In this document: piece by piece, positions 2,139-30,245 of the stretch
How positions within the stretch are numbered: position 1 is the first letter of the stretch
How the letters are laid out: the number at the start of each line of letters is the position of its first letter
IMG/VR virus record: IMGVR_UViG_3300014501_000024
Coordinates: 1-53,222 of that record
Origin: a virus
Direction: 5' to 3' (one strand)
Length of the DNA: 53,222 bases
Translations under genes and position numbers: made by a program
Notes under the pieces: generated by a model
Databases searched by the model: none
What the model was told of the DNA's origin: nothing
Seen by the model: the letters and a program-made list of their open reading frames with translations, nothing else

Positions 2139-3092
2139 CTACAACCCCCAGCCCGTGAGCTTGTCCGCGACGGAGCGAGCCTGGTCCGCCACGTCCCGAC
2201 GCACACCCTCGGATTTGCGCAGCGCCTTGGCATCGACACCCGCGAGCATGTCGGAGATGTCCCGCGTGATCTCGGCCGCACGCGGGTCCTGGGCGACGTT
2301 CCAGCCGGGGATCAGGATCATCAGCTCGCGCACATCCTCGACGGTGCTGGCGCGGAACGTGGCGGCGTCACCCTTGGCGTCAGTCTCGGTCAGGCGCCCA
2401 ACCATGTGGTTGACCCGCTCGCGCACCTGCTCCCACATCGCGGCCGAGGCGGTGGCCGCCATGCGGGATTGTTTGGCGGCGAGCCCCTTGGACAGCTTGC
2501 CCAGCATGGCGTCAGGCAGGCCCTGGAACTGGGTGCCGGCCGGGATCGGCTCGAAATCGAAGCTGACCCGGAAGCTGGCACGCACCTCAGTGACCGATGG
2601 ATAGTCGGCGTCAGCCAGTGCCGCGAGGTTGGTGCGCGCCTGGATCACGGCGGCTGGATACTCGTCTATAAATTTATCCAGGCTAGCGAGTGCCACCCGC
2701 TTGAGCCGCGACATCTCGCCCAGATATTTGTCGAACAGCATATTGGGCAGCAACCTGGGCCCGCGCATCCGCTCGGTCGGCGAGCCGGCGACCCATGGCA
2801 GGGTCAGCGCATAGTGCTGGTTGCGCACCGCGGCGTAGGCACCCTTGCAGTCCTTGTAGCTGCCGTCCACGCCAGCCAGCAGGTTCTTCACGGCGCGACC
2901 GACATTGCCCGTGGCGCCCGCGTCAGCCTTCACCTTGTCCATGATGGCGCGGTCCGATCGCTCGGCGCCCCAGATGGATATGCTCACGCTGGCCAGCATG
3001 GCGGTCGAGCGCACCGCCTCACTCAGATCGGCGCCCGTCAGCATCGTTGTTTGAGCGTCGGGCGGCTCGGATAGCTGATAGGCTACGTCCAT
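2139..3092 (-). CDS. Helical protein of the AAA+/VWA block (DUF3150-like)
   Basis: This 317-residue, mostly helical protein has no visible catalytic motif. The central part (about 120-250) alternates charged and hydrophobic residues and includes a conserved-looking aromatic patch near RVSFDFEPIPAGTQF. In other phages a protein of the DUF3150 type commonly lies between a MoxR/CobS-like ATPase and a VWA protein. The similarity in size, order and helical character leads me to that label, but the family assignment is not certain. A CAGGAG ribosome-binding site lies 8 bases before the ATG, and palindrome 3113-3129 lies 20 bases upstream. Confidence 0.7.
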   Translation of the reverse strand: MDVAYQLSEPPDAQTTMLTGADLSEAVRSTAMLASVSISIWGAERSDRAIMDKVKADAGATGNVGRAVKNLLAGVDGSYKDCKGAYAAVRNQHYALTLPWVAGSPTERMRGPRLLPNMLFDKYLGEMSRLKRVALASLDKFIDEYPAAVIQARTNLAALADADYPSVTEVRASFRVSFDFEPIPAGTQFQGLPDAMLGKLSKGLAAKQSRMAATASAAMWEQVRERVNHMVGRLTETDAKGDAATFRASTVEDVRELMILIPGWNVAQDPRAAEITRDISDMLAGVDAKALRKSEGVRRDVADQARSVADKLTGWGL

Positions 3093-4643: not shown

Positions 4644-5098
4644 GGTGTCTCGCCCACCGGCGCACCCGTGATGTCCAGCTCGACACTCTCGTCCGCGCAG
4701 TAGGACTTGCCGCAGCTCGAACATTCATCGTCGCAGGCGCAGGACCAGTTCATGGTCCATTCCTGCCCACAGTCATCACATTGGTAGTGGTTCTCGAACA
4801 GGCATGGCTCGCCGTCGGAGTCCACGTCGCCCTTCCAGACGTCGCTGTCCGCGACCCACACCCACGCCATCACGTAGGCTCCCTGATCGTCGCTCAGCGA
4901 CACCACGGCCGAGCTGTCGATCTCCAGCTCGCCATCGCGCTGCTTGTCGCGGGCGGCCTCGACGTAGGCTTCCTCGACGCGGCCCTTCGCTTGGAACGCC
5001 ACAGTGCAGGATGCGAACGTCAAGCCCTTAGAGATCAGCGTGCGTAGCGCCGCTTGCAATTCGTCGCCGGTCAGCGTGGGTGAATTTTGTTCGTTCAT
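4640..5098 (-). CDS. Cysteine-rich (zinc-ribbon-like) hypothetical protein
   Basis: The start is set at the ATG at 5096-5098 (MNEQNSPTLTGDELQAALR), just downstream of palindrome 5111-5127 and a GAAGAA purine stretch. The longer frame would translate through the palindrome. The 152-residue protein has an acidic N-terminal two thirds and a cluster CDDCGQ...CACDDECSSCGKSYC near residues 105-132. Those paired CxxC motifs look like a zinc-binding ribbon. This could be a DNA- or protein-binding adaptor, but no specific family is recognised. Confidence 0.7.
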   Translation of the reverse strand: MNEQNSPTLTGDELQAALRTLISKGLTFASCTVAFQAKGRVEEAYVEAARDKQRDGELEIDSSAVVSLSDDQGAYVMAWVWVADSDVWKGDVDSDGEPCLFENHYQCDDCGQEWTMNWSCACDDECSSCGKSYCADESVELDITGAPVGETP

Positions 5099-6404: not shown

Positions 6405-6416
6405 GCTCTCCCAGCC

Positions 6417-6432
6417 CTCACTACGTAATAAC
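6417..6432. promoter_or_regulatory. Start-associated palindrome, even-spaced variant
   Basis: CTCACTACGTAATAAC keeps the central ACTACGTAATAA of the 16-bp subclass. It lies 12 bases upstream of the leftward membrane-protein gene. Confidence 0.6.
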
Positions 6433-6887
6433 TTTCGGACTAGACAAAAGTTATAAGGGTCGCGGGCTGAAAAGACTGAAATTAGGCATATCAGTCACTT
6501 ACGAATTGTAGCTATCGTATCCAGGAAAATCACGTTAAGAAGGCGATTGAAGCTGTTGAAAAGACTGGTTAAAGCTATCAAAGCTATTAAAACGTCCAAA
6601 ATCTTGTATAGACACCTACAGAGATGTTCCCTATGCGCGTAACGAAAAAAGTTCATTCAATAATTTCGTGCGTAGCGCAATTTTATTTACGCCCTATAGG
6701 AAAGCCAAAAACCCGCGTATATATAAAAAAACCATAGATATAATAGTTATAATGGATATAATAATTAAAAACTCCAGCTTGCTCTAGGGCTTCCACGAAA
6801 TCGACCATAACCAAAGCCTAGCTTTTGACTAGGCTATGGTTGCTATGGTTCGCGGCTTTGGTCCAGCTAATTCTTCGCGTGTTAAAA
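6433..6887. other. AT-rich non-coding island with repeats and an inverted repeat
   Basis: No credible gene is seen in these 455 bases. The stretch from about 6640 to 6775 is very AT-rich for this genome and contains two TATAAT-like boxes near 6740-6765. Short direct repeats such as AAAGCTAT occur near 6570-6590, and CTATGGTT occurs twice at 6834-6850. An inverted repeat AGCCTAG/CTAGGCT (6815-6821 and 6829-6835, loop of 7) has outer arms ACCATA/TATGGT. It lies directly downstream of the leftward gene at 6888-7877. It could be an origin, a promoter region or a terminator; the sequence does not decide which. Confidence 0.5.
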
Positions 6888-7877
6888 TTAAGCCGCCGCA
6901 AGCTCCAGATTGTCGCCCAAAAGGCTATCTACGTCCATCGCGTCGAGCACATCGTCACCCAAAACATCGGCGATCACGTCTACCTTAATAATCTTGGGTG
7001 AGTTCGTTACGGGTATAGGGAGCATCTTGGGGGTCGGCTGAAGGCCCGGCTTCGCGACCGTGACGAACGGCGAGGGCTTGTTTACTACGGAAGTGTTAAT
7101 GTTGGTCGTAACCACGGGCGTGTGCGCCTGGATGTCCTTAACATCCTCCTCAGTGAGCGCATTTTTACGTGCCTGCGCTGCGGTAACATGTTCAACGGTA
7201 ACGCGCTGCAAACTTTCGATCGCCACGCCGATGTCATCCACAGGAAAATCTGTGTGAAACTCCTGTAGCTTAGACAGAAGGTTTTCCAGCTTGGTGAACA
7301 CCTTGCCCACGTTGTGATCCGGGTCGTTCTCAATCGCGTAGTCTATCAGCGTGGCTTCTTCCTGGATAAGAATTCCATCGTTGATCGCAGCTTTCATCGC
7401 GCCGGTAATCGCGTGGTACTTGCGCTTCGCCCACTTAGCGATGGGTCGTGGCGCGCCGTCGTTCAGCTCGACCTGTTGGGCTTCATTTTCCCAAGCAAGA
7501 TTTACCACGTCGACCAACGTGCGAAAGTTATCCCGCACGGCTGGATGTGCGGCGTAGCAAATTTCATACAGGAAAGTCTTAACCGAGCTTTCTGCTTTTG
7601 GTCCGCCGTTACCCTTGACGACATCCTTGACGGCACTCTTGACTTCCTCGGGATGCCAGTTATTTTTCTCTGCGAGATCAGCAACCACAAACATAATGTC
7701 CACGCGCTTGGAATTGACCACCTCGCCCGCGGCTTTCGCAGCGTCTTTGGCGTCATTGTGAAGGCTTACATCTACGTTGATATCGGCCGCGTTGACGCGC
7801 AGCGCGCTTGCAATCTCATCAACGCGCTTTTGGTTCAGATTAAACGTCGCGCCAGTAACCTTGGTTTTCTTTGCCAT
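6888..7877 (-). CDS. Hypothetical protein, 329 aa, lower GC than its neighbours
   Basis: The product begins MAKKTKVTGATFNLNQKRV. Residues 1-240 look helical and charged, and residues 250-300 are a proline- and valine-rich linker that includes AHTPVVTTNINTSVVNK. The C-terminus is acidic (DVLDAMDVDSLLGDNLEL). No enzyme motif is visible. By eye its codon choice is less GC-rich than that of the surrounding genes, which suggests a separate origin. It is a strongly placed early-gene candidate because it heads the leftward unit facing the divergent control region, with a GGAAG-containing palindrome 7 bases upstream. A DNA-binding or host-takeover role is possible but unsupported. Confidence 0.75.
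   Translation of the reverse strand: MAKKTKVTGATFNLNQKRVDEIASALRVNAADINVDVSLHNDAKDAAKAAGEVVNSKRVDIMFVVADLAEKNNWHPEEVKSAVKDVVKGNGGPKAESSVKTFLYEICYAAHPAVRDNFRTLVDVVNLAWENEAQQVELNDGAPRPIAKWAKRKYHAITGAMKAAINDGILIQEEATLIDYAIENDPDHNVGKVFTKLENLLSKLQEFHTDFPVDDIGVAIESLQRVTVEHVTAAQARKNALTEEDVKDIQAHTPVVTTNINTSVVNKPSPFVTVAKPGLQPTPKMLPIPVTNSPKIIKVDVIADVLGDDVLDAMDVDSLLGDNLELAAA
7081..7097. repeat. Degenerate palindrome copy inside a gene
   Basis: TTTACTACGGAAGTGTT lies inside the gene at 6888-7877 and resembles the CGGAAG variant. It encodes the NTSVVNK stretch on the leftward strand. Confidence 0.45.
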
Positions 7878-7884
7878 AGTGTTG

Positions 7885-7901
7885 TTTACTTCCGTAGTAA
7901 A
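7885..7901. promoter_or_regulatory. Start-associated palindrome, CGGAAG variant
   Basis: TTTACTTCCGTAGTAAA is identical to the copy at 5111-5127. It lies 7 bases upstream of the start at 7877, and its leftward-strand GGAAG is the only ribosome-binding-site candidate of that gene. Confidence 0.8.
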
Positions 7902-8394
7902 TGTTAAGGATGCTCGATAAACACAGGGAAAACTCCCTATGCTTGTGGAGCATCCTTGCGTGTAGGTGTGACTACACGCGCGGAAATATTAAGCTCTTGC
8001 GAGTCGCTTGCTAGGCGACTCAACAAGTTTGGGCTTTTAGTTGATACACGGGCTGCGGCTAAAGAGAACCGAGACTGTTCCGTGGCGGCATATCAGGTAT
8101 AACCGAGGGGGTGATACCCCTGCCTCCTGACTGTTTCATCCTTTGTATCGCTGTTCGGAAGGGATACTTCCTGCGACCCGGTTAGCTTGGTCCGGGCTTG
8201 GCACGTTACTTAGGCTGGTAATACGCTAAATCCGTTTTTATTACGTAGTAACTGGACAGGGGGTATGCCCCCGGCACCAGGGGGGCCATCTGGACAAGGG
8301 GTGGGTGGCCAGGCCCGCCCAGGTAAGTCGCTCACACAAAAATCCCAAATTTTCCAAAGCCTTATAACCACCCCTAGTGTATTCTTGTTGATCT
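7902..8394. ncRNA. Hairpin-rich divergent intergenic region, candidate structured RNA or control region
   Basis: There is no gene in this roughly 490-base region between divergent genes, but it is dense in hairpins. AAGGATGCTC (7906-7915) pairs with GAGCATCCTT (7948-7957) around an inner AGGGA/TCCCT stem. GCGTGTAG (7958-7965) pairs with CTACACGC (7972-7979) across a 6-base loop. GAGTCGC/GCGACTC pairs just after 8000. GGGG/CCCC with a TGATA-type loop occurs near 8108-8122, GGAAG/CTTCC near 8158-8172, and GGGGG/CCCCC across TATG near 8259-8272. Such density is unusual for a plain promoter region. It may be a structured RNA, a set of attenuators or a regulator-binding region. No known RNA family was recognised and the strand is undecided. 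Confidence 0.4.
8237..8252. promoter_or_regulatory. Start-associated palindrome, even-spaced copy in the control region
   Basis: TTTATTACGTAGTAAC is one of three copies within the divergent region 7885-8411. It is not adjacent to a start codon. Confidence 0.65.
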
Positions 8395-8411
8395 CTCACT
8401 ATCGTCGTAAA
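8395..8411. promoter_or_regulatory. Start-associated palindrome
   Basis: CTCACTATCGTCGTAAA has a perfect right half-site (GTCGTAAA) and three mismatches on the left. It lies 29 bases upstream of the rightward start at 8441. Confidence 0.65.
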
Positions 8412-8440
8412 TGTTCCTGACCTCAAACCCAGGACGCACC

Positions 8441-8908
8441 ATGAGCGATACAATCCAGCCGACCGATGAGACCGCCCTCGACAGTCGTCGCGACGATGAC
8501 GGCGACACCATGGCCGTCGAGATCAGCATTCCGCCCACGCCCGATGAGGTCGCCAGGGCCGCGGCAATCCGCGCCGCGTCGGATCCTACCAAGCCGAACG
8601 CCCCGGAGGCGCCGAGCACGGCCGCGCTGGACTACGTGCCGCCTGCGCCCGATCCGAGTGCCGCGACCGAGGACGCCGCGCACGCGGCGACGAACGAGCA
8701 GGCCGAGGACGGTATACATAAGGAGAGCGGCCTCGACGCCCGGCTGCACATGGCGCACGGGCTGGCCAGGCGGGGGCTGGCCTTCGCGTCGATCAACGAT
8801 CTGGCTAAGGCGGTGTTGCTTATGCTGGACATGCACCGGACGCCGAAACCCGCCGATAGCCCGGTCGCGATCGCGGCTGCGAGAGGTGAGGGACCCCCTT
8901 TGCTCTGA
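8441..8908 (+). CDS. Acidic hypothetical protein, 155 aa
   Basis: The start is the ATG at 8441 (MSDTIQPTDETALDSRRDD), preceded by AGGACG. The frame is open 30 bases further upstream but that would start inside the palindrome. The N-terminal 95 residues are acidic, alanine- and proline-rich and probably disordered. The C-terminal part (LDARLHMAHGLARRGLAFASINDLAKAVLLML split into helices) looks like a small helical domain. No family is recognised. It heads the rightward unit facing the control region, so an early role is likely. Confidence 0.68.
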   Translation: MSDTIQPTDETALDSRRDDDGDTMAVEISIPPTPDEVARAAAIRAASDPTKPNAPEAPSTAALDYVPPAPDPSAATEDAAHAATNEQAEDGIHKESGLDARLHMAHGLARRGLAFASINDLAKAVLLMLDMHRTPKPADSPVAIAAARGEGPPLL

Positions 8909-9156
8909 ACGCTTTATATTGAGAGTCTTTATATAGAGGTTGCGCCCGCACCTGGAAACCGTACTAGGTGCGGCGCGATCTTATGCGAGTGTACTCGTAA
9001 GGGACCCTAAAGAACTCCTATAGGACTCCGACAGGGCCATATGATTTGCTACCGACTCGGGTTATAGTGCGTTCGCACAATCGCTAGGGTGCTGATAAAA
9101 TACGAGTTTAGCAAATATACGGCGAGGGTGCCGTGTTGGGGTAACCAGGGATCGAG
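8909..9156. other. Non-coding region with hairpins and an AT-rich repeat
   Basis: No gene is seen. CTTTATAT occurs twice near 8920 and 8934. CCGCACCT (8946-8953) pairs with AGGTGCGG (8966-8973) over a 12-base loop. Short perfect palindromes follow: CGAGTGTACTCG near 8986, CCTATAGG near 9018 and GTGCGTTCGCAC near 9069. The first hairpin may terminate the gene at 8441-8908. The rest may hold the promoter of the next gene. Confidence 0.4.
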
Positions 9157-9615
9157 TTGCATATGCCGGTAGCGAATAGGAAAAAGCTTTCATCGACCGT
9201 GGTGCAAGAGAAGAAAGTTTGGCCGCCGTTACCAAAATTGTCGCTGAGCATGGTCATGGCGATCGAGGAATATCTTATAGAGAAGTTCAAGTCTAAGCGA
9301 CCGCCTGAAGTTAGTGCGAAAGTCTTAGCTCTGGTGATCGAACTTCATCGACGTGGCGAACCATTTCCGTTGCGCGCGCACGTCGCGCATGATTTGAACT
9401 GCTCAAAGTTTGGCGTGGACGCGGCGCTCAACATGGCGATGGCGCGCGATCTGGTTGTGCTCAAGGTGACCATTCAGGAGAGCCTGACGATTTCACACCG
9501 GCCGGCGGTCACGCAGCACCGGTTTTTCATCCCGAGCCGCCGCTTGATCGCGGCATCGGGTCAGGCGCAGTCACCGTCGCCATCATCGTCGACGCGGCGT
9601 GCCGCAGCGCAGTAG
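9157..9615 (+). CDS. Winged-helix-like hypothetical protein
   Basis: The frame opens with TTG at 9157 and has an ATG at 9163. AGGGA lies 5-6 bases before the TTG and 12 before the ATG, so the TTG is slightly favoured. The central part (about 45-110) alternates short helices in a way that resembles a winged-helix DNA-binding fold, with KVLALVIELHRRGEPFPLR followed by AHDLNCSKFGVDAALNMAM. The C-terminus is serine- and arginine-rich and probably disordered. A transcriptional regulator is a reasonable guess, but no family is recognised. Confidence 0.62.
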   Translation: MHMPVANRKKLSSTVVQEKKVWPPLPKLSLSMVMAIEEYLIEKFKSKRPPEVSAKVLALVIELHRRGEPFPLRAHVAHDLNCSKFGVDAALNMAMARDLVVLKVTIQESLTISHRPAVTQHRFFIPSRRLIAASGQAQSPSPSSSTRRAAAQ

Positions 9616-17457: not shown

Positions 17458-18023
17458 GGTATAGGTTCTCCGTCGATGGTTGGGGTTTGTTGAATTACGT
17501 TGATCGACTCGGTTTTGCCGGTGCCCGAGAACACGAACTGCACGCTGAACATGGGCCCGGTGACCGCGTCCGCGTTGTTCGCGCCGCCGGTGCGGTTGTC
17601 GGCGCCGCCGAACCGGCCGCTGACTTCGAGCATCTTCACCCGCAATGCCGCCGGCGTGAGCGGATCGGCGATCATCTTATGGGCGACGCCGGCCGACTCC
17701 AGCGTGAGCTGCCCATACATGCGCCTGATGCGTTCGGGTTGGTTGTCATCTGACTCCCAGATCGCCTTGCGCACCTTGATGCGCCGCCGCACCTCGGGGA
17801 TTTTCAGGAACTCCAGCAGCTGGGCGGCTGACAATCCATAGCGGGCCGCGATCACATGCGGCCTGACCATGTTGATGCCCAAATCGTTGATCAAGTTTTG
17901 CGTCGTAAGATCGTCCGGGTCGAACTCCCGCAGTGTCGCCACAGGTGTTGCGTCGACCAGCGAGTAGACGTGCTTTTCGAACTGCGCTTCTTCGCTCTCG
18001 GCCTCTACCATTAAACTATCCAT
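17454..18023 (-). CDS. Putative terminase small subunit
   Basis: The 189-residue product begins MDSLMVEAESEEAQFEKHV and is mainly helical. A helix-turn-helix-like segment (VIAARYGLSAAQLLEFLKI) is followed by the helical MIADPLTPAALRVKMLEVSG region and a polar C-terminal tail. Size, helix-turn-helix and place at the head of the terL operon fit a small terminase subunit that recognises the packaging site. I infer the role from context and layout rather than a diagnostic motif. It diverges from the portal gene, sharing a 70-base region that contains palindrome 18065-18081. Confidence 0.65.
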   Translation of the reverse strand: MDSLMVEAESEEAQFEKHVYSLVDATPVATLREFDPDDLTTQNLINDLGINMVRPHVIAARYGLSAAQLLEFLKIPEVRRRIKVRKAIWESDDNQPERIRRMYGQLTLESAGVAHKMIADPLTPAALRVKMLEVSGRFGGADNRTGGANNADAVTGPMFSVQFVFSGTGKTESINVIQQTPTIDGEPIP

Positions 18024-18064
18024 ACGGCGTCCTTGCCATCGGGGCGTTACAGGTCTAACGATTA

Positions 18065-18081
18065 TTTACGACCGTAGTAAA
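18065..18081. promoter_or_regulatory. Palindrome between the divergent terminase and portal units
   Basis: TTTACGACCGTAGTAAA matches the consensus with both outer halves intact. It lies 41 bases upstream of the leftward terminase operon and 12 bases upstream of the portal start, so one site could control packaging and head genes together. Confidence 0.8.
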
Positions 18082-18093
18082 TAGGTTGCCGGT

Positions 18094-20349
18094 TTGCCGC
18101 AAGCGATCCCAGGTGCAAGCGTCAGTACGCCGCCCGCCACAAGTCCGTTTGGCGGGTCACGCCCGAACTCGGGCGCCGTCAGCTCGGGCCATGGCTTGCT
18201 ACGGGTGGTCTCCAACGCGCAGCTCAACGAACATCACCGCAACCTCAAGGCGCAACAGGCCGACGCGGCCGCCAAAACCTTACCGACCACGGATCTCGGA
18301 AGTTTTATCCGCAGGCGTTGGGAGGCTTTCCGCAATCATCGCAACCAGGGGACCGACCCTCTGAACGAGCGCCTGTTGCGGGCGCAGCGCATGTTTGAGG
18401 GGCGCTACGATGAGAATAAACTGGCGGAAATCGCCAAGTTCGGCGGCAGCAGGGTCTACGCGCGCACCGTTGCGGTGAAATGCCGCGGTGCCGCCAGTCT
18501 GCTGCGGGACGTCTATCTCGGCCCCGATCGCCCATGGGATATCCAGCCGCAGCCGGACCCCAAGGTGCCGCCCGAGATCCAGGCCCAGATCATGCAGCTG
18601 GTGAGCACCGAGGTCGGTACACAGAAAGCTTCTGGTGCGCCGATCCTGGAGGATCAGGTGCATATGCGCTATTTGGGCCTGATGCACGCGGCGCAGGCCG
18701 CCGCCCGGCAGAACGCGCTCAACCAGGCCAAGACCACCTCCGACAAGATCGAGGATATCCTGGTCGCGGGCGGGTTTTATGAGGCGCTGACCGAGTTCCT
18801 GACCGACCTGCCGCTGTTCCCATTCGCGTGCATCAAAGGCCCCGTCGTGCGGATGGTGCCCAATCTCACCTGGAAGAACGGCAAAGCCTCGCTGGTCAAC
18901 AAGGCGCAGATGTTTTGGGAGCGGATAAGCCCGTTCGACGTTTACTGGTCGCCTGGCGCCAGTCGCATTGCCGACGCCGAGGTCATCCAGCGCAAGCGGC
19001 TCACCCGCACCGATCTCAATGATTTGTTGGGTCTACCCGGCTACGATCAGGACGCGGTGCGTGCCTGCCTGGAGGATTACCGGCTCGGCCTGCGCGACTG
19101 GCTCGACGCGCCCGACACCGAGCAGGCGCTCAACGAGGGCCGGGAAAATCCTTGGACCAACCAGTCGCAGATGATCGACGGGCTGGAATACCACGGCAAC
19201 GTGCAGGGCCAGATGCTGCTGGATCAGGGGGTGAACCCCAAGCTGATCAAAGACCCCGATCGGGATTACGCGGTGCAGTCCTGGGTGGTCGGTCGCCACA
19301 CGCTGAAGACGATCCTCAATCCGAGCCCGCGTCAGCGGCATTCCTATTTCATGACATCGTTCGAGAAAGTGCCTGGCACTGTCTCGGGTCATGCGCTGCC
19401 TGAACTGCTTGAGGATGTGCAGGAGGTCACCAATGCTGCTTATCGAAGCCTGGTTAACAACCTGGCTATCAGTTCTGGACCCCAGGTGGTGGTCAACGAC
19501 GAGATGCTATCGCCCACCGAGTCGGGCGACGAGCTATACCCTTGGAAACGTTGGCACATCACCGGTGATCCGATGTCCAACCAACGTGAGCCCATTACGT
19601 TCTTTCAGCCGCAGAGCAACGCGCAGGAACTGCTGAGCGTCATCGCCGCGATGGATGGCCGCGCTGACGAGACCAGCGCCATCCCTAAATATCTCACCGG
19701 CAGCTCGCTCGCCGGCGGCGCTGGCCGCACCGCCTCGGGCCTCTCGATGCTCATGGGCAACGCCGAGAAGATCCTCCAGACGGTGGCGGCCAACGTCGAT
19801 ACCGACGCGATGCGGCCGTTGCTGACGGCGCTCTACGACATGATCATGCTTACTGACACCTCCGGCATGCTCACTGGCGAGGAAGAAATCCGCGTGCGGG
19901 GTGTCAATGTCGCCACGCAGAAAGAAACCGAGCGTCAGAAGCAACTACAGTTCCTCCAGATTACTGCGAACCCGATCGACGGCCCGATCATCGGCACGTT
20001 GGGCCGGGCGCGCGTGCTTCGCGCCATCGCGCAGGATCTTGGATTGCCCGACAACATCGTTCCTGATGATCAGACGCTACAGCAGCAACAGGACGAGCAG
20101 AAGCAGATGCAGGCTGCGCAGGTAGGCCAGCCGCCTCCGCCGGGCACACCGGGTGCGCCGCCGGGTGCGCCAGGCGCTCCACCACCGCCGGGGCCTGGAG
20201 GGTCAGGCACTCCCAGTCAAGCCGGACCAGGCACACCGCCCGGCAACGCGGCGCAGGGCAATCAGCCGCCGCATCCGGGGCCGGCACAGCCGGGTCCACC
20301 GCCGGTGAATGCGTTCCAGCAGGGCATTCCAGGGAGGATGGCAGCATGA
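18094..20349 (+). CDS. Portal protein
   Basis: The 751-residue product has the size and layout of large podoviral portals (P22/N4 type). A helical N-terminal part and a central alpha/beta core (residues about 200-560) include SPFDVYWSPGA and IPKYLTGSSLAGGAGRTASG, the latter typical of portal clip/stem regions. A Gln-rich helix and a Pro/Gly-rich C-terminal tail of about 75 residues follow. It would form the dodecameric DNA gate of the head. The start is a TTG (18094) with AGG 8 bases upstream; no in-frame ATG is near. It overlaps the next gene by ATGA. Confidence 0.88.
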   Translation: MPQAIPGASVSTPPATSPFGGSRPNSGAVSSGHGLLRVVSNAQLNEHHRNLKAQQADAAAKTLPTTDLGSFIRRRWEAFRNHRNQGTDPLNERLLRAQRMFEGRYDENKLAEIAKFGGSRVYARTVAVKCRGAASLLRDVYLGPDRPWDIQPQPDPKVPPEIQAQIMQLVSTEVGTQKASGAPILEDQVHMRYLGLMHAAQAAARQNALNQAKTTSDKIEDILVAGGFYEALTEFLTDLPLFPFACIKGPVVRMVPNLTWKNGKASLVNKAQMFWERISPFDVYWSPGASRIADAEVIQRKRLTRTDLNDLLGLPGYDQDAVRACLEDYRLGLRDWLDAPDTEQALNEGRENPWTNQSQMIDGLEYHGNVQGQMLLDQGVNPKLIKDPDRDYAVQSWVVGRHTLKTILNPSPRQRHSYFMTSFEKVPGTVSGHALPELLEDVQEVTNAAYRSLVNNLAISSGPQVVVNDEMLSPTESGDELYPWKRWHITGDPMSNQREPITFFQPQSNAQELLSVIAAMDGRADETSAIPKYLTGSSLAGGAGRTASGLSMLMGNAEKILQTVAANVDTDAMRPLLTALYDMIMLTDTSGMLTGEEEIRVRGVNVATQKETERQKQLQFLQITANPIDGPIIGTLGRARVLRAIAQDLGLPDNIVPDDQTLQQQQDEQKQMQAAQVGQPPPPGTPGAPPGAPGAPPPPGPGGSGTPSQAGPGTPPGNAAQGNQPPHPGPAQPGPPPVNAFQQGIPGRMAA

Positions 20350-27747: not shown

Positions 27748-30245
27748 TGCTCGGTTTTTCACCACTCGCCGGAGCACCGCTCGCCGCACTTCCAGCAGCG
27801 GGAGTCGCTCAGGTAGTCACCGCAGCGCCCCTAACTGCGACGTTCGCGCTGGGCACGCTGAGCGGTGTGTTCAACCCGCAGAGCGTAGTTGCCGCGCCGC
27901 TGACTGCGACGTTCACACTGGGCACGCTGAGCGGTGTGTTCAACCCGCAGAGTGTAATTGCTGCGTCGGAAACTGCAACCTTCGCGTTGGGCACGGTGTC
28001 GGTCACGCAAGTGGCCACCAACACGATCACTGCTGCGTCTTTGGTGGCGACGTTCGCGCTGGGCACATTGTCGCTCGCCTACGATCAAAGCCTCAGTGTT
28101 TCAGGGCTGACCAGCGTGTATGCGCTGGGCAGCCTGTCCCTTACCCAAATCGCGGGTCAGACTCTCACAGTCTCGGCGCCTGGCGTCGCTGCGACCTTTG
28201 GGCTGGGCGCGATGTCGCTTGCCTACAATCAGCCGATCACTGTTGGATCGTCGGTCACTGCCACGTTTGCGCTTGGCGCGGTGTCGCTGTTCCAGGGCCA
28301 GTCCATCACCGCATCGCCTCTCATCGCGACTTTCGCGCTGGGCACGGCGGCCCTTTCTTACGTCCAGTCGGTTCTTACTACCGGAGTGTCGGCGACGTTC
28401 GCACCCGGTGCGGCTACGGTGGTCGAGCCTGTGAACCAGACCCTCACTGTCGCAGCGCCCGTGACTGCGACCTTCGCGCTGGGCGGGGCAACGATTTCCA
28501 CGTTGGGCGTGAATATTATTGCAGTGGCAGCGCCCGCAGTGGCGACGTTTGGTTTAGGTCCAATCTCGCTCAGCTACGCCCGAAGCCTCACCATATCAGC
28601 ACCCACGACCGCGACGTTCGCGCCGGGTGCAGTGTCGGTAGTAGCACTGGGCGTGATCGCGATCACGGTGGCCGCACCTGTGACCGCCATGTTCGTGCTC
28701 ACTCCGGATATCAAGCTCGGCTATAACCAAAACGTGGTCGCGGCGGGGGCTGTGGCCACCTTCGTTCCTGGACCTGGCATCACGGTTGGGTTTGGGCTGC
28801 CGCAAACGATCTCGGTGGTCACTGGGTTTGATCTCAGTTTTAGCCCGAGTTCCCAGATCGTCGTGCAGGCGAATTTCTTGGTGTGCGCGCTGACGATCCC
28901 GCCCGGCGGCTCGGCGACGTTCAATGTGGTGTTCACGCCGACGGCGCCGGGTGTACGCACGGGCGTTTTGAGTTTCACCTCGAATGCGACGCCGGGGGCA
29001 ATCGCACTATCTGGCACCGGTGCCGCGGCGGTGGTGCCGGTTGGCAATCAAATCCTCACCGTGACGGGGGCTACGGCGACTTTCGCGATCGCTCCTACCG
29101 CCGTCGGAACCCTCTTGCGTCTCAGCACGGCTGGCAACCAGATCGTGGATAGCACGGGCGCCAACGTGAGGCTCAGATCCATCAACTGGTTTGGGGCCGA
29201 GGGCACGAACTTCACGCCTGATGGCATCTGGGGGCGTGGCTACCAGAGCATCCTGAACCAGATACAGGCGCTCGGGTTTAATTGCATAAGGCTGCCTTTC
29301 GCGGATGACATCTTAACTCAGACGCCTCTCAGCATCGACTATGTGGTCAACGCGGATCTTGTCGGTCTGAACTCGTTGCAGGTGCTGGACAAGATCATCG
29401 CTTATGGTGGAAGCCTCGGGCTTTACTTCGTGCTAGATCATCACAGGTGTTCGGCCACCACCGGCTCGGGCACCGATGGCTGGCCAGCAGCGGGTTGGGT
29501 CGGCGCTTACACGCAAGCCAACTGGCTGGCCATGTGGACCACCATGGCGACTCGGTATGCTTCCAACAAAGCTGTTCTTGGTATGGACCCTCACAATGAG
29601 CCGTACAACATCGCTTGGACCGACTGGGTGTCGGGCGTCGCCACACTCGCCAATGCGATCCATGCCATTGCGCCGGATTGGCTGGTGTTCTGCGAGGGTG
29701 TCGGCCTGGTAGGCTATACCGGTGGATCACCTGGGTACTGGTGGGGTGGCAACCTTTCGGGTGTGGCGAGTATGCCGCTTGTGCTGACCACGCCGAACAA
29801 GGTGGTCTACTCGCCACACGAATATGGGCTCAGTGCGAACGCACAACCATGGCTGGAAAGCACCACCAACACCGTCGCGGGTTGGCCGAGTTCGCTCGGA
29901 CCCGTCTGGGAGTTCGCCTGGAGCTACATCTTCCGCGAAGCCATTGCGCCGATCTGGGTCGGCGAGTTCGGCGGGAAGTTTGGCTTTACGGGCAGCGGTG
30001 CGGTGGACTCGACGCAGCTCAGCGCGAGCTACGAGGTGACCTGGCTAGACACGCTGATCCAGGCACTCAACGGCGACCCTGACCTGACTGGGACCAAGGT
30101 CATCGCGGGCGCCCAGAAGGGCATGAGCTATAGCTACTGGGCGCTGAACCCGGACTCGGCTGATACAGGCGGATTGTTGGAGGATGACTGGTTGACGGTG
30201 CAGCCTGGCAAGCTTGCGCTGCTTGAGCCGTTGCTGACGGCCTAA
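27747..30245 (+). CDS. GH5 cellulase-domain protein with beta-repeat stalk
   Basis: The start is the ATG at 27747, overlapping the propeller stop (TGATG), giving 832 residues. Residues about 22-370 hold roughly 14 repeats of 22-25 residues around the motif APLTATFALGTLSL. An ASH-like domain follows (about 370-435; PPGGSATFNVVFTPTAPG). Residues about 455-832 form a GH5 TIM barrel: LRSINWFGAEG, a GFNCIRLPF strand, FVLDHHR, HNEP with acid/base Glu618, SPHEYG with His691, and WVGEFGG with nucleophile Glu740. All key residues are present, so activity on a beta-1,4-glucan is expected. Endoglucanase is favoured by the adjacent GH48 gene, but GH5 also contains mannanases and other activities. Confidence 0.9.
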   Translation: MLGFSPLAGAPLAALPAAGVAQVVTAAPLTATFALGTLSGVFNPQSVVAAPLTATFTLGTLSGVFNPQSVIAASETATFALGTVSVTQVATNTITAASLVATFALGTLSLAYDQSLSVSGLTSVYALGSLSLTQIAGQTLTVSAPGVAATFGLGAMSLAYNQPITVGSSVTATFALGAVSLFQGQSITASPLIATFALGTAALSYVQSVLTTGVSATFAPGAATVVEPVNQTLTVAAPVTATFALGGATISTLGVNIIAVAAPAVATFGLGPISLSYARSLTISAPTTATFAPGAVSVVALGVIAITVAAPVTAMFVLTPDIKLGYNQNVVAAGAVATFVPGPGITVGFGLPQTISVVTGFDLSFSPSSQIVVQANFLVCALTIPPGGSATFNVVFTPTAPGVRTGVLSFTSNATPGAIALSGTGAAAVVPVGNQILTVTGATATFAIAPTAVGTLLRLSTAGNQIVDSTGANVRLRSINWFGAEGTNFTPDGIWGRGYQSILNQIQALGFNCIRLPFADDILTQTPLSIDYVVNADLVGLNSLQVLDKIIAYGGSLGLYFVLDHHRCSATTGSGTDGWPAAGWVGAYTQANWLAMWTTMATRYASNKAVLGMDPHNEPYNIAWTDWVSGVATLANAIHAIAPDWLVFCEGVGLVGYTGGSPGYWWGGNLSGVASMPLVLTTPNKVVYSPHEYGLSANAQPWLESTTNTVAGWPSSLGPVWEFAWSYIFREAIAPIWVGEFGGKFGFTGSGAVDSTQLSASYEVTWLDTLIQALNGDPDLTGTKVIAGAQKGMSYSYWALNPDSADTGGLLEDDWLTVQPGKLALLEPLLTA

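Follow-up and report, generated by a model that had tools for sequence, protein, structure and literature searches.

The 53,222-bp virus record analysed here (the window) carries, between positions 7902 and about 8220, a stretch that in our estimate has roughly a two-in-three chance (0.66) of encoding a highly structured leader or non-coding RNA, read from the minus strand toward g8 and the operon with the ATPase and VWA genes. Support for it in the window itself is good but indirect. The window lacks R1, a 42-nt strongly covarying module present in about ten of its relatives, and its RNA is therefore deduced from position, fold and architecture. The relatives themselves clearly carry, on the evidence of their sequences, a real and evolution-tested RNA at this divergent locus, and part of that RNA forms a new family or module not yet in Rfam. 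The original prediction left the choice between a novel phage RNA and a complex operator region, and each half holds in part: operator or promoter palindromes occur here, very probably together with a structured minus-strand RNA.

The divergent gap and its hairpins

Positions 7878-8440 form a 563-bp non-coding gap flanked by two divergent genes of no known family. These are g8 (6888-7877, minus strand), the first leftward gene, downstream of the proposed RNA, and g9 (8441-8908, plus strand), the rightward gene, whose start at 8441 is preferred over one at 8411 because of an AGGA upstream. In relatives g8 is conserved at 23-30% identity, and as a single-sequence query against viral contigs it returned no relatives. 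A coding explanation for the gap was rejected, as a codon-usage gene finder supported no ORF within it. ARAGORN calls no tRNA or tmRNA in the gap and no Rfam family matches it credibly at either gathering or permissive E-values, in agreement with the earlier statement that no tRNA pattern is visible.

The description of the region as hairpin-dense is borne out: 7902-8394 contains nine perfect hairpins with a stem of at least 5 bp, against 3.5 ± 1.6 in dinucleotide shuffles (p=0.003). Three other gaps of the same genome (6405-6887, 13842-14255 and 18024-18204) are about equally rich in hairpins of at least 6 bp, so that hairpin density alone is not unique to 7878-8440. Fold energy over the whole gap gives z-scores of -3.1 on the plus and -4.4 on the minus strand, and over 7878-8240 it lies far below shuffles (-3.9 plus, -6.3 minus). 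The excess of structure is concentrated at 7900-8240, and 8000-8340 taken alone is not significant.

Two neighbouring hairpins singled out at the outset both exist. In the first (7906-7957, minus strand) an outer 10-bp helix (7906-7915/7948-7957) encloses an inner 11-bp helix (7919-7929/7934-7944), with a pair probability above 0.8; the second (7958-7979, minus strand) has a perfect 8-bp stem and a 6-nt loop. Two pairs of the inner helix read G-U in the minus-strand RNA but would be A-C mismatches in its plus-strand counterpart, and the long hairpin is thus intact only as a minus-strand RNA. Also on the minus strand are an extended stem-loop at 7992-8035, with a 7-bp apical stem GAGTCGC/GCGACTC (8001-8021) above lower helices of 4 and 3 bp and again a pair probability above 0.8, the 5-bp hairpins AGGGGGTGATACCCCT (8106-8121) and GGAAGGGATACTTCC (8157-8171), and a 6-bp hairpin at 8176-8197, which occupies the position where relatives have R1 and does not match it (4.3 bits). 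Stems of the kind in GGGGTGATACCCC (8106-8121) and in the hairpin at 8157-8171 had been said to recur; each was found once.

A covarying RNA in related phages

At the DNA level, positions 7000-9200 match none of 50,697 phage records. Relatives were reached with a profile of the neighbouring ATPase and terminase, which gave about 20 related records at 50-65% protein identity; the best portal/terminase relatives are about 60-72% identical in protein, too distant for the RNA body. The corresponding regions of two loci, L008 and L071, have no DNA similarity to named phages. The shared gene order is terminase - g10 - [divergent gap] - g8 - ATPase - VWA protein, and about 15 phages with this order have a non-coding gap of 0.4-1 kb at the point of divergence. 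The cultured Rhizobium phage RHph_TM3_14A, which grows on Rhizobium etli and whose terminase is 43% identical, shows this arrangement too, and nothing is annotated in its genome at 17522-18201 or 19356-20124. Nearly all relatives have a second non-coding gap directly after g8. In the window this second gap is 6405-6887, A+T-rich and with a fold z of -3.6 on the minus strand, and its equivalent in relatives and in RHph_TM3_14A measures 0.4-0.9 kb in the same place. The window has a third hairpin-rich gap between g9 and g10 (8909-9162; fold z -3.5 on the plus strand).

The four relatives L008, L057, L062 and L070 can be aligned over about 400 nt, and their consensus fold has an energy of -94.3 kcal/mol as minus-strand RNA and of -66.5 kcal/mol as plus-strand RNA. 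The minus-strand fold contains conserved G-U pairs, and 29 of its 87 predicted pairs have changed on both sides, compared with 11.9 in shuffles and at most 11 when the alignment was slid. As single sequences the relatives show a modest fold excess (mean z -1.4 minus, -0.8 plus), and among 4227 Rfam models there is no credible match to their gap RNA. Compensatory changes in related phages had been proposed as the check on a structured RNA; they are strong at the same locus in the relatives, to which this result applies. The window's own structured body has no sequence similarity to any relative and hence no alignable homologue.

What the window and its relatives have in common is the locus itself, the palindrome at 8237-8252, the G/C-run block with the sequence after it, a minus-strand structured body, and a hairpin pair just before the first leftward gene. 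Inspection of the alignment by eye indicates that the position-equivalent of hairpin 7906-7957 carries compensatory changes, with the G-U pairs holding on the minus strand, and that in three relatives the first gene has its Shine-Dalgarno sequence inside this hairpin. A GC-rich hairpin occupies the position of 7958-7979 in relatives, and the window's hairpin there is a candidate 3' end of the RNA.

Strand choice cannot be read from fold energy alone. A structured RNA on the plus strand, running rightward into g9 and g10, would agree with alignment groups A and Act, which fold slightly better on plus, and with a few loop-closing pairs of R1 that would be G-U on that strand. However, it is very improbable given that the minus consensus fold is better by 28 kcal/mol and has the conserved G-U pairs, that hairpin 7906-7957 has its G-U pairs on the minus strand only, and that promoters 5' of R1 and gene directions indicate leftward transcription. 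At R1 loci the gene on the 3' side of the minus-strand RNA usually runs the same way as the RNA, and at L068, L088, L091, L094, L095 and L096 so does the gene on the other side. In L067, L071, L074 and L082 a minus-strand TTGAC[AT]-17-TA promoter precedes R1 by 12-23 nt, and L094 has a similar one, so R1 is probably located at the very 5' end of an operon-leading RNA in these unrelated phages. The strand assigned to the relatives was settled by these promoters, by the four-sequence consensus and in part by gene context.

In the window no good -35 box for a leftward promoter was found. Comparison with L010, L012, L061 and L059 points to TATTAC (8218-8223, minus strand), a weak -10-like hexamer that follows the palindrome at 8237-8252 after about 14 nt and would place the RNA start near 8211. 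If the minus-strand RNA is real, the candidate promoter (about 8211-8252), which overlaps this operator palindrome, would be under its control. The RNA would begin there, measure about 250-330 nt and fold as a chain of hairpins, of which 7958-7979 and 7906-7957 would come directly before the ribosome-binding site of g8. This pair may make up or shield the 3' end of a short RNA that would be abundant, and read-through past it would feed the g8/ATPase operon.

Palindromes and the G/C-run block

The three palindromes reported to bracket the region are real. The first, TTTACTTCCGTAGTAAA (7885-7901), is situated 8 nt before the g8 start codon, is one of about 14 intergenic copies in the genome, and contains in its minus-strand half a Shine-Dalgarno-like GGAAG. 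The second, the operator-like TTTATTACGTAGTAAC (8237-8252), stands in the same place as in relatives: most R1-bearing relatives have a related palindrome about 33-44 nt 5' of R1, and in the window's own family the place before R1 is held by a palindrome related to TTTACT-N5-AGTAAA. The third, CTCACTATCGTCGTAAA (8395-8411), lies 38 nt before the g9 start. Palindromes of the type TTTACTNCCGNAGTAAA occupy three places here and about 14 intergenic places genome-wide, mostly 10-50 nt before gene starts. Sites of the form TTTACT-(4-5 nt)-AGTAAA were recorded at 289, 3113, 5111, 5784, 7885, 8237, 8395, 18065, 21389, 23768, 30247, 35522 and 47783; they are intergenic, often near gene starts and on either strand, and 24 occur at a match of at least 9/12 against 10.8 in block shuffles. 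The repeats look as if they formed a set of operators, or of sites tied to gene starts, that spans the genome much as the stoperators of L5 do.

Both this set and the similar hairpin richness of other gaps in the genome would suit an ordinary divergent promoter/operator region, in which the palindromes bind protein, the hairpins at 7906-7979 act as terminators or ribosome-site hairpins for g8, and the RNA has a role just as a 5' UTR. We consider this rather unlikely, as the relatives keep hundreds of covarying bases at the locus, far beyond what an operator needs, and the fold excess of 7878-8240 reaches its z of -6.3 on one strand.

Positions 8255-8340, like their counterparts in relatives, form a block in which runs of G or of C flank a TGGACA/TGTCCA core. 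The strand that bears the G runs differs between relatives, which suggests a DNA-level role for this block. The end of the block and the AGGTAAGTCGCTCACAC that follows it (8299-8337) are the only stretch with DNA similarity to relatives, at 80% over 40 bp (L009 and L160/L224). In the divergent gap of L010, four tandem copies of a 29-30-bp unit, GGGCTTTTAGTAAATTCTGTTATGCGTCA, adjoin the G/C-run block.

A replication origin, or another DNA-level element composed of the G/C-run block, an A+T-rich stretch and palindromes, would account for the conservation of the block and its core across the family, whichever strand bears the G runs, and for the A+T-rich stretch beside it, and L005 has a TTATCCACA box at its block. 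It is nevertheless improbable as an explanation of the region: the structured body does not include the block, the GC skew shows no switch here, and the strand-specific G-U covariation in relatives favours RNA.

The R1 module and known phage RNAs

R1 was noticed by inspecting the gaps of relatives and reads, on the minus strand in the orientation of the window, as GGAAAGCC, a variable hairpin, and AUGUCGCUACC. Across 19 instances it shows 32 compensatory cells, compared with 10.2 after shuffling and no more than 11 when slid. Its outermost pair varies between C-G and U-A and keeps Watson-Crick pairing in 26 of 27 instances. Members score 30-54 bits against the R1 covariance model, and R1 has no match in Rfam 15. 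The same model, run on the window with filters off, gives 4.9 bits at best, and R1 was rejected as an explanation for the window. R1 was likewise absent from the two cluster A loci tested (L138 and L139), and none was found in 36 portal-related records by a search that had no positive control. In one phage group two modules stand in tandem (L075:4904-4963 and 4978-5017; L076:1435-1494 and 1509-1548).

The module recurs in unrelated phages, including the cultured mycobacteriophage Cuke, whose copy lies in a 730-nt stretch with no annotation (28881-29610) that follows the lysis genes and precedes the right-arm operon. Scanned for the R1 pattern, viral contigs yielded 35 loci, and in most of these the variable part forms a perfect hairpin. 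In bacterial genomes the pattern turned up 41 times, almost all without a hairpin (3/41 have a stem of 3 bp or more), where chance alone would give about 47 (257 Gb x 2 strands x 25 gap lengths / 4^19). One bacterial match, in Cellulomonas sp. SG140 (L135:7920-7948), has its inner and outer pairs intact and is perhaps genuine, L135 being perhaps a prophage. In Fowlmouth, a relative of Cuke, the surroundings are kept and another sequence stands in the place of R1, which indicates that R1 is exchanged in some lineages; this is the reading given to its absence from the window. The contig of L082, which has R1, also contains a type II hammerhead ribozyme (L082:1422-1490; Rfam RF02276, 45 bits).

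A broader proposal can be put forward tentatively, at less than even odds: that a new and widespread class of phage RNA heads the early operons of otherwise unrelated tailed phages, with a structured body that varies, spans about 300-900 nt and often has an exchangeable R1 at its start, that R1 either controls the RNA polymerase of the host or makes a stable RNA that acts in trans, and that the window is a divergent member whose R1 has given way to another sequence. R1-type loci may also explain the unannotated 0.5-1 kb gaps that head early operons in many phage genomes. R1 in the relatives is in itself a new RNA module worth registering, and since it is absent from Rfam and present in Cuke, which grows on M. 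smegmatis mc2 155, the function of such an early non-coding RNA is directly testable.

The mycobacteriophages L5, D29 and StarStuff offer the nearest parallel in arrangement. Their Pleft promoter produces a non-coding RNA of about 500 nt, toxic, of unknown function and the most abundant phage transcript in infected cells; it is encoded in the interval that runs from this early promoter, which is under operator control, to the leftward operon's first gene (PMC5712189). The window resembles this in that its non-coding gap precedes the first leftward gene, g8, behind a promoter that is here a prediction, and in the repeated operator-like sites throughout the genome; moreover, the R1-bearing L067 resembles cluster A phages in its gap. 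However, 7000-9200 has no sequence similarity to the cluster A right end among the 50,697 phage records, the cluster A loci L138 and L139 lack R1, and the transcript has been seen in L5, D29 and StarStuff whereas it is predicted for the window.

A second comparison is with the put RNA of HK022, about 70 nt in two stem-loops, which binds RNA polymerase, putL modifying the polymerase in cis (PMC9378689). Both are small structured elements just downstream of an early promoter, as R1 lies 3' of TTGACA promoters in some relatives. However, R1 is by inspection a single interrupted stem-loop of about 42 nt with other conserved letters, and it is usually followed by hundreds of structured bases. The comparison is offered speculatively, as an analogy and not as a claim of membership. 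By the same analogy, our guess would be that the window's RNA acts in cis on early transcription, through RNA polymerase modification or leader stability, rather than through translation control alone.

GOLLD and ROOL, large ornate phage-associated RNAs that are likewise long, multi-hairpin and non-coding (Rfam; PMC12286853), share these general features with the RNA proposed here, but the window and its relatives fall below the gathering threshold for all 4227 Rfam models. At the right end of Mycobacterium phage Heffalump (L139, about 2680-2830, minus strand) the left end of the cluster A non-coding region looks like a tRNA-like fold with a T-arm GGTTCGATTCC and a GGGTAG/CTACCC stem, for which ARAGORN makes no call; this fold could explain the 3' end of the L5-type RNA.
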